Of a stretch of 64,000 bases of DNA, positions 21,442 through 23,771 are shown piece by piece (the stretch's first letter is position 1; each line of letters starts with the position of its first letter). The position numbers and the translations under genes were made by a program. The stretch covers positions 186,001-250,000 of the forward strand of contig NZ_JBGGTQ010000005.1 in the NCBI RefSeq assembly GCF_041320705.1, read 5' to 3'. The notes beneath the pieces were generated by a model that was not told the DNA's origin, ran no database searches, and worked only from the letters and a program-made list of their open reading frames with translations. The DNA is from Kineococcus mangrovi. GTDB taxonomy: Bacteria; Actinomycetota; Actinomycetes; Actinomycetales; Kineococcaceae.

Positions 21442-22881
21442 ATGCGCAGAGCGAAGATCGTCTGCACCCTCGGACCCGCCGTGGCCGGTCCCGAAGGGTT
21501 GCGGTCACTGGTGGACGCCGGGATGGACGTCGCCAGGATGAACTTGAGCCACGGCTCCCACGACGACCACCGGGCGAACTTCGAGGGGGTGCGTGCCGCC
21601 GCCGAGGCCACGGGCCGGTCCGTCGCGATCCTCGCGGACCTGCAGGGTCCGAAGATCCGCCTCGGGAAGTTCGCCGACGGCCCGCACGCCCTCGCCGTCG
21701 GGGACGTCTTCACGATCACGACCGAGGACGTCGTCGGCACGAAGGACGTGTGTTCCACGACGTACGGGGGCCTGACGGGCGACGTCGCGGTGGGCGACCG
21801 GATCCTCATCGACGACGGCAAGGTCGGCCTGGAGGTCACCGCCGTCGACGGCCCCCGCGTCGTCACGAAGGTGACCGTCCCCGGGCCCGTCAGCAACAAC
21901 AAGGGCATCAACCTGCCCGGCGTGGCCGTCAGCGTCCCGGCGTTGTCCGAGAAGGACGTCGAGGACCTCCGCTTCGCCCTCCGCCTCGGTGTCGACATGG
22001 TGGCGCTGTCCTTCGTGCGCTCGGCGGCCGACGCCGAGGACGTCCACGCGATCATGGACGAGGAGGGCGTCACCGTCCCCGTCATCGCCAAGGTGGAGAA
22101 GCCGCAGGCCGTCGAGAACCTGCGCGAGGTCGTCGCGGCCTTCGACGGCATCATGGTCGCCCGCGGCGACCTGGGCGTCGAGCTGCCGCTGGAGGAGGTG
22201 CCGCTGGTCCAGAAGCGCGCCATCGAGCTCGCCCGCCGCCAGGCCAAGCCCGTGATCGTCGCCACGCAGATGCTCGAGTCGATGATCACCGCGCCCCGGC
22301 CCACGCGCGCCGAGGCCTCCGACTGCGCGAACGCCGTCCTCGACGGCGCGGACGCGCTCATGCTCTCGGGCGAGACGAGCGTGGGGGCGTTCGCGTTCGA
22401 GGCGGTGCGCACGATGGCGCGCATCATCGAGAACACCGAGACCCACGGCGCGGACCGCATCGCGGCCCTGGGCACCGTCCCGCACACCAAGGGCGGCGCC
22501 ATCACGCTGGCGGCCTCGGAGATCGGCAAGCAGCTCGACGCCAAGCTGCTCGTCACCTTCACCCAGTCCGGTGACTCCGCCCGCCGCCTGTCCCGCCTGC
22601 GCGCCCAGATCCCCCTCGTGGCCTTCACGGCCGAGGAGACGACGCGCCGCCGCCTGGCGCTGTCGTGGGGCGTGGACTCGCAGTACGCCGCGTTCATCTC
22701 CACGACCGACGAGATGGTCAAGGAGGTCGACCGCCGACTGCTGGAGATGGGCCGCTGCGCCGTCGGCGACCTCGTCGTCATCGTCGCCGGTGCCCCGCCC
22801 GGGATCGTCGGGTCGACGAACGCCGTGCGGGTGCACCGCATCGGCGACGCGACGGCCGGGGTGTCCAGCGCCTACGCCTGA
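21442..22881 (+). CDS. pyk: Pyruvate kinase
   Basis: Makes pyruvate and ATP from phosphoenolpyruvate, the last glycolytic step. 479 residues in the A-B-A-C domain order: RAKIVCTLGPA at the start, the B-domain around 70-165, the signature VIAKVEKPQAVENLREVVAAFDGIMVARGDLGVE with the catalytic Lys, ATQMLESMITAPRPTRAEASD, and the C-terminal effector domain. ATG 21442 follows TAGGCT (21430-21435) by 6 nt, indicating a leaderless transcript. A strong terminator follows. Confidence 0.96.
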   Translation: MRRAKIVCTLGPAVAGPEGLRSLVDAGMDVARMNLSHGSHDDHRANFEGVRAAAEATGRSVAILADLQGPKIRLGKFADGPHALAVGDVFTITTEDVVGTKDVCSTTYGGLTGDVAVGDRILIDDGKVGLEVTAVDGPRVVTKVTVPGPVSNNKGINLPGVAVSVPALSEKDVEDLRFALRLGVDMVALSFVRSAADAEDVHAIMDEEGVTVPVIAKVEKPQAVENLREVVAAFDGIMVARGDLGVELPLEEVPLVQKRAIELARRQAKPVIVATQMLESMITAPRPTRAEASDCANAVLDGADALMLSGETSVGAFAFEAVRTMARIIENTETHGADRIAALGTVPHTKGGAITLAASEIGKQLDAKLLVTFTQSGDSARRLSRLRAQIPLVAFTAEETTRRRLALSWGVDSQYAAFISTTDEMVKEVDRRLLEMGRCAVGDLVVIVAGAPPGIVGSTNAVRVHRIGDATAGVSSAYA

Positions 22882-22893
22882 GCCCCGACGTGA

Positions 22894-22927
22894 GGAGAGC
22901 CCCGGAGCAGCTGCTCCGGGGCTCTCC
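22894..22927. terminator. Perfect 17-bp inverted repeat after pyk
   Basis: A 34-nt perfect palindrome (arms GGAGAGCCCCGGAGCAG and its complement, no unpaired loop bases) starts 13 nt after the pyk stop. It probably terminates pyk, and, being symmetric, also reading from the minus-strand tRNA on the other side. Confidence 0.75.
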
Positions 22928-22960
22928 GCGTCCCGCGGTCCTGCCCGCGGTACCGCGCGG

Positions 22961-23034
22961 TGCCCTGGGTGGGATTCGAACCCACACTGGATCGAGTTTG
23001 AGTCGATTGCCTCTGCCGGTTGGGCTACCAGGGC
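22961..23034 (-). tRNA. tRNA with anticodon CAA (Leu), short variable loop
   Basis: A complete cloverleaf on the minus strand: acceptor GCCCTGG/CCAGGGC (7 bp) with discriminator A, a 3-bp D stem GCC/GGC, anticodon stem ATCGA/TCGAT with loop CTCAAAC, T stem GTGGG/CCCAC with TTCGAAT loop. The anticodon CAA (complement of 22998-23000) reads UUG, hence Leu. Bacterial tRNA-Leu normally has a long variable arm, but only CCAGT separates the anticodon and T stems here. CC follows the discriminator A in the genome. The gene is well formed; its true amino acid is less certain than the anticodon implies. Confidence 0.85.
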
Positions 23035-23153: not shown

Positions 23154-23771
23154 GTGACGAACACTGCCGACACCACCGCCGCGTCCGCCACGACCACACG
23201 TCGGGTGGTCGTCGCGGAGGACGAGGCCATCATCCGTCTCGACATCGTCGAGATGCTCACCGAGGCCGGCTACGACGTCGTGGGCCAGGCCGGGGACGGC
23301 GAGCAGGCCGTGGCCCTCGCCGAGGAGCACAAGCCCGACCTCGTCGTCATGGACATCAAGATGCCCGTCCTGGACGGCATCTCCGCCGCCGAGCGGATCG
23401 CCAAGGCGCGCATCGCCCCCGTCGTCCTGCTCACCGCGTTCTCCCAGGCCGAGCTCGTCGAGCGCGCCCGCGACGCCGGTGCCATGGCCTACGTCGTCAA
23501 GCCGTTCACCTCGGCCGACCTGCTGCCCGCCGTCGAGATCGCGGTGAGCCGCTACCAGCAGATCATGACCCTCGAGGACGAGGTCGCCGACCTCGCCGAC
23601 CGCTTCGAGACGCGCAAGCTCGTCGACCGCGCGAAGTCGAAGCTGCAGACGCAGTTCGGGATGAGCGAGCCCGAGGCGTTCCGCTGGATCCAGAAGACCT
23701 CGATGGACAAGCGCCTCACGATGCGCGAGGTCGCCAACACCGTCATCAGCGCCGGCGACGACCGCGGCTGA
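23154..23771 (+). CDS. pdtaR: Response regulator with ANTAR RNA-binding domain (PdtaR type)
   Basis: A 205-residue two-domain antiterminator: a receiver domain (RVVVAEDEAIIRLDIVEML, phosphoacceptor Asp67 in VVMDIKMPVLDG, conserved LLTAFS and YVVKPFT) followed by an ANTAR domain (about 135-195, ending EPEAFRWIQKTSMDKRLTMREVANTVI). In mycobacteria PdtaR, phosphorylated by PdtaS, binds tandem hairpins in mRNAs. No sensor kinase gene is in the window. GTG 23154 follows TAGGAT (23142-23147) by 6 nt. An inverted repeat GGCCGGT..ACCGGCC (23101-23130) lies just upstream. Confidence 0.92.
   Translation: MTNTADTTAASATTTRRVVVAEDEAIIRLDIVEMLTEAGYDVVGQAGDGEQAVALAEEHKPDLVVMDIKMPVLDGISAAERIAKARIAPVVLLTAFSQAELVERARDAGAMAYVVKPFTSADLLPAVEIAVSRYQQIMTLEDEVADLADRFETRKLVDRAKSKLQTQFGMSEPEAFRWIQKTSMDKRLTMREVANTVISAGDDRG

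Follow-up and report, generated by a model that had tools for sequence, protein, structure and literature searches.

The 64-kb window analysed here, the whole stretch of 64,000 nucleotides from Kineococcus mangrovi, contains a single tRNA gene according to ARAGORN and Rfam, at 22961–23034 on the minus strand. Very probably this is a functional tRNA-Leu(CAA) of class I that receives leucine from the single leucyl-tRNA synthetase (LeuRS) of the genome and reads UUG. Class II tRNAs have a stem-loop variable arm, in place of which class I has a 5-nt variable loop; the long arm is usually described as a universal feature of tRNA-Leu in bacteria, whereas this bacterial chromosome and many of its relatives use an arm-less form. 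The assignment is based on the identity elements of the tRNA, its conservation with covariation, the codon complementarity of the two classes and a locus shared with the long-arm CAA gene of relatives, and from these we infer that the gene is expressed, that LeuRS charges its product and that the ribosome uses it. The gene belongs to a class I tRNA-Leu family that phages share with the chromosomes of Actinomycetota. The anticodons of this family are CAA, UAA, UAG and, rarely, CAG or GAG; the window gene is one of its many members and not a one-off oddity.

The gene and its genome

The tRNA was called as tRNA-Leu(caa) by ARAGORN over 22959–23034 of the minus strand, and RF00005 matches 22961–23034 at full length (model positions 1–71 of 71) with 58.2 bits, the gathering score being 29, which bears out the complete cloverleaf of the original prediction. 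The anticodon loop, CUCAAAC, gives CAA in the ARAGORN call just as it had been read by eye, a leucine anticodon; the discriminator is A, and CCA, as read from the sequence, is absent from the gene. The variable region had been described as CCAGT and nothing more, and the Rfam alignment likewise places 5 nt there, short of the 10 nt or more of a class II variable arm. When folded as a single strand at minimum free energy, the acceptor, anticodon and T stems form, and the native D-stem does not.

Features of the tRNA gene and its surroundings, in window coordinates
Feature	Position	Strand	Source or remark
Class I tRNA-Leu(CAA) gene, 74 nt without CCA	22961..23034	-	ARAGORN, Rfam, models R2 and R3
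Anticodon CAA	22998..23000	-	ARAGORN, position 35 of the gene
Variable loop CCAGU, 5 nt, final base U48	22986..22990	-	Rfam alignment
D-arm, 17 nt, with A14, A15, G18, G19, A20a	23009..23025	-	
Discriminator A73	22961	-	Sequence
pyk (pyruvate kinase)	21442..22881	+	Open reading frame
pdtaR-like response regulator	23154..23771	+	Open reading frame
Perfect 15-bp hairpin, loop AGCU	22894..22927	none	Fold z-score -4.80; between convergent pyk and tRNA

The tRNA gene is convergent with the open reading frame 21442–22881, which we take to be pyk, and divergent from 23154–23771, presumably a pdtaR-like gene, both names agreeing with the original prediction. The hairpin at 22894–22927 may be a shared terminator for the pyk and tRNA sides, though without a T run; a terminator scan found no T-tailed terminator.

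The genome of K. mangrovi (4.36 Mb, 99.9% complete) has 48 RF00005 matches. Its other four tRNA-Leu (CAG, GAG, UAA and UAG) are long-armed, 84–86 nt as printed by ARAGORN. A search for a normal long-arm tRNA-Leu(CAA) had been proposed as a check; ARAGORN calls no second CAA tRNA in the genome, and the window gene is its sole CAA gene. The 17-nt D-arm with A14A15 occurs in 5 of the 48 distinct tRNA sequences, which are exactly the five Leu tRNAs, and one LeuRS gene lies above the cut-off (921.7 bits over joined pieces). The earlier statement that UUG is very rare holds in part: in 38 window open reading frames picked by a GC3 rule it makes up 35 of the 1597 Leu codons (2.2%), but UUA (0), CUA (3) and CUU (3) are rarer still, and UUG is the third most used Leu codon there. 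In-frame TTA is absent from the 16116 codons of these reading frames. UUA is scarce in Streptomyces too, a likeness to these TTA-free reading frames.

A class I tRNA-Leu family in Actinomycetota and phages

An exact pattern scan of GTDB genomes matched at least 120 stretches, whose titles are mostly those of Actinomycetes, the exceptions being L081 (Acidobacteria), L123 (Planctomycetota) and L150 (Bacteroidales). Among the matches listed, 119 of 120 stretches received a Leu(caa) call, and the calls in the 80 loci listed are all 74–78 nt long. The chromosome survey is one of Actinomycetota, and these three array-borne finds are the class I Leu genes seen beyond that phylum; the array of L123 (41–2428) comprises 14 called tRNAs, in which all four called Leu (UAA, CAA, GAG, CAG) are of class I size, 77–78 nt. 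Closer to the window, the tRNA of Kineococcus rubinsiae differs at 1 position and that of K. xinjiangensis at 3, beside pdtaR matches of 93% and 86% identity, respectively. A DNA search of the order with the window tRNA matched 89 of 99 genomes, a figure that mixes CAA and UAA members and is not a count of CAA genes; blastn against E. coli genomes gave no match. In an alignment of 56 sequences, L081, L123 and L150 included, 15 of 20 base pairs have changes on both sides and 98.9% of the cells pair, compared with at most 52.3% when the partner is slid by 1–3 columns. None of 500 shuffles, a control that ignores relatedness, reached the observed pairing and covariation. Chance is excluded for the structure of the window tRNA.

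A phylum sample of 246 Actinomycetota genomes was searched with R2, a model of the class I family whose training set includes the window tRNA. In the genome of K. mangrovi, R2 gives the window tRNA 100.4 bits and the next tRNA 66.7. Since R2 finds some tRNA match in all 246 genomes, the presence of class I Leu was read from the score. Among the matches listed, 76 reach 71.7 bits or more. ARAGORN identifies 75 of them as class I Leu; it reads the remaining one, L343, as Phe(aaa), but inspection by eye makes this a class I Leu too, its loop CTTAAAA giving UAA. Five matches at 69–70 bits were fetched and proved to be four Met-type tRNAs and one Leu(UAA). With L343 left out and the latter UAA gene included, the genes of the sample are 20 CAA, 52 UAA and 4 UAG. 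Of the 77 rows, in which one CAA gene is counted twice, all have A73, 75 have A14A15 and 74 have U48; both rows with G15 carry C48. The four chromosomal UAG genes of class I are from family f45 (L370 500–574, L376 500–573, L377 501–575 and L404 499–574). The G15–C48 members, a compensatory change of the Levitt pair, are two class I CAA genes (501–574 in both L361 and L363) of family f21, in genomes of 8–9 Mb. They run against the A15–U48 rule of E. coli, and may reflect a tolerant LeuRS or copies changing role.

The phage members served as a test of the anticodon. A viral pattern in which the D-arm was fixed and the anticodon left open at 34, 35 and purine 36 matched at least 120 stretches, of which 116 of 120 received a tRNA call from ARAGORN and four did not; all the calls are Leu (UAA 77, CAA 29, UAG 9, CAG 1). 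Two viral scans that paired this D-arm with different anticodons and, unlike the leucine-anticodon scan, also required GTTC at a set distance found one stretch each, an Asn(GUU) with G73 (L318 4715–4788) and a Gln(UUG) with U73 (L319 7434–7507). These are the only sequences lacking A73 among 97 distinct viral ones, and may be Leu-bodied tRNAs of changed identity. By blastn, 123 records of annotated phages were found, and 50 of 60 among the matches listed are annotated as tRNA-Leu.

Leucine identity and codon complementarity

The long arm is contacted in bacterial LeuRS structures. In E. coli, according to the available part of a 2023 review, leucine identity resides in A73, A15–U48, G18G19, A20a and contacts between D-loop and T-loop, and tRNA-Leu variants without the long arm remain active (PMC9976931). 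The window tRNA has all ten of the identity elements that were checked, including A73, A14, A15–U48, G18G19 and A20a. Model R3, which was trained on 16 long-arm Leu tRNAs alone (four from the genome of K. mangrovi), ranks the window tRNA of that genome at 65.4 bits directly after the four long-arm Leu (82.4–97.1) and 16 bits over the next tRNA (49.0); part of this margin is due to the anticodon, since CAA loops make up half of the training set (8 of 16 rows). In other genomes the model additionally selects two Ser tRNAs, at 52.0 bits. LeuRS would charge the tRNA through A73, the tertiary pairs U8–A14 and A15–U48, and the corner of D-loop and T-loop (G18G19, A20a), none of which would need a long variable arm, and the leucylated tRNA would then decode UUG. 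That LeuRS relies on alternative features, the A discriminator for example, to accept the tRNA was among the readings first offered for this gene, and the identity elements, R3, the genomes with class I as sole UAA tRNA and the exchange of classes at the pdtaR locus all point to it.

In their gene sets, class I and class II tRNA-Leu complement each other by codon. A pattern for UAA tRNAs was run on 20 chosen genomes and matched 32 times. Each genome has one true UAA tRNA among these matches, 20 in all, and the remaining 12, once fetched, proved not to be UAA tRNAs. The UAA tRNA is class II in four genomes (that of K. mangrovi, G120, G128 and G208) and class I in 16, where, provided the pattern missed no UAA tRNA, the decoding of UUA would fall to class I. 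A pattern for class II CAA matched at least 102 of the 246 Actinomycetota genomes, but no genome among the 20 that carry class I CAA (Fisher p = 1.6e-5, the genomes not being independent); this pattern is too strict and misses true cases in G021, G223 and G298. No class II CAA was found among all 68 class II-length R3 matches of the other 19 class I CAA genomes, which comprise 65 Leu (CAG, GAG, AAG, UAG, UAA), two Ser(UGA) and one called Pro(agg). With a less strict CAA pattern, overlap with an R3 match was seen in all four controls but not in any of the 20 class I CAA genomes. The R3 matches likewise contain no class II UAA in G135, G170, G191, G244 and G256, which have class I CAA and UAA, and no class II UAG in G128, G208 and G250, which have class I UAG. 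In G165 and G218 R3 finds only one and two class II Leu, respectively, and their Leu sets are incomplete.

Charging with another amino acid, with UUG misread or recoded, was also among the original suggestions. The missing arm is unusual for Leu, and R2 ranks Asn and other class I tRNAs of the genome over class II Leu, an order that is expected from length alone. Against this, the same body goes with leucine anticodons (all 116 viral calls among the matches listed of the open-anticodon scan) and with A73, which was part of no search pattern used and is kept in all 64 distinct sequences from cells and in 95 of the 97 from viruses, the exceptions being the Asn and Gln tRNAs; in the 16 genomes where class I is the sole UAA tRNA found, UUA would otherwise go unread as leucine. 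We consider this reading to be very improbable, and the suggestion has found no support.

We give equally little credence to the proposal that the gene has no translational use and is a pseudogene, a regulatory tRNA-like RNA or a mere integration site. UUG is a minor codon that the UAA tRNA of the genome could read, so the gene may be dispensable, and a sequence scan found no sigma-70-like promoter for it; however, its covariation is strong, its anticodon and identity elements are intact, its sister UAA genes are the sole UAA tRNA found in 16 genomes, and it takes the place of class II CAA at the locus where relatives keep their long-arm tRNA-Leu(CAA), which leaves the non-translational role first suggested without support. 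The chances are practically nil that the gene arose as an artefact of assembly or sequencing, or that a single deletion in this strain removed the arm of an ordinary tRNA-Leu. Nothing but the rarity of the form speaks for this, whereas the class I D-stem is also unlike that of class II and the gene is found in six other genomes of the genus and family (four at 100% over 76–79 bases, two at 95–96% over 81–82), independent assemblies that refute this explanation.

The pdtaR locus and known systems

A leucine tRNA used in translation is the reading to which the locus also points. Conservation beside pdtaR in relatives, proposed as a check, was seen at 30 of 30 loci of the order, that of the window included, where class I CAA lies within 1.5 kb of pdtaR; these are the best 30 of the order-wide matches. 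In many genomes tblastn places pdtaR next to a class I CAA gene, and among the GTDB matches listed the same distance holds for 89 of 119 named loci, the other 30 consisting of 14 without a pdtaR match though both flanks exceed 900 bases and 16 with short flanks. In the phylum sample it holds for 20 of 21 rows (19 of 20, as one gene appears twice), and for none of 52 rows of class I UAA, 38 of which have short flanks. We also sampled 14 genomes chosen mostly for the absence of class I CAA, 12 of which have pdtaR. In seven of these 12 (G005, G021, G147, G223, G265, G298 and G328) a class II Leu(CAA) of 83–87 nt lies 28–248 bases from pdtaR, in G334 it lies 1.4 kb away, and in four no tRNA was called at the locus. 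G005 and G021 are of the same order as the window, and both forms occur in families f21 and f22.

Since class I and class II CAA genes occupy the same pdtaR locus, one tRNA-Leu(CAA) locus has switched from one class to the other, either on several occasions or with transfer. Arm loss alone does not explain this change, because the classes differ in the D-stem as well as in the arm (GCC/GGC in class I, mostly GYG/CRC in class II); possible routes are gene conversion and replacement, with a class I gene as donor, and the change may have run in either direction. A bolder and rather doubtful proposal is that class I Leu is a second, separately evolving leucine architecture common to phages and Actinomycetota, which has repeatedly displaced the long-arm form at fixed positions on the chromosome, one isoacceptor at a time, perhaps favoured because it escapes recognition by arm-dependent toxins, nucleases or modifying enzymes. 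The family offers a natural test of what LeuRS requires, provides an example of a fixed locus that switches class, and links phage tRNA sets to cellular ones. In some genomes an arm-less tRNA-Leu is the sole tRNA found for UUA, and isotype calls based on arm length could mislabel such genes.

In its available part, the 2023 review gives tRNA-Leu as long-armed in all organisms and organelles but animal mitochondria (PMC9976931), and another source, likewise seen in part, names three M. tuberculosis tRNA-Leu as long-looped (PMC11541572). The terms 'short variable' and 'phage' do not occur in the available text of a review of non-canonical tRNAs (PMC7609411). The open-licence literature searched held no description of the class I tRNA-Leu family, and nothing relevant on a Streptomyces tRNA-like RNA; what is known is a short-loop tRNA-Leu(TAG) in mycobacteria.

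Apart from the arm and the D-stem, the window tRNA shares with bacterial class II tRNA-Leu the anticodon set, A73, U8, A14, A15, G19, A20a, U48 and the 17-nt D-arm, as well as the locus beside pdtaR in relatives. The phages EFDG1 (Enterococcus), ZC03 (Pseudomonas) and Bromden (Mycobacterium) carry class I Leu of 75–77 nt with a body like that of the window tRNA, annotated plainly as tRNA-Leu; their anticodons are UAG, UAA and UAG, respectively, in contrast to CAA, and a class II tRNA-Leu for another codon lies nearby (UAA, UAG and CAA). The tRNA-Leu(TAG) of the Mycobacterium mucogenicum clade, encoded in a tRNA cluster, is also an actinobacterial tRNA-Leu with a short variable loop, but in the available text it is a passing mention of one anticodon in a mobile-looking cluster, and it is likened here by description (PMC6582537). 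Animal mitochondrial tRNA-Leu, as described in the available part of the 2023 review, is leucylated without a long arm, with identity through A73 and A14; it differs in being mitochondrial and degenerate, and the likeness is one of features, not of sequence (PMC9976931).
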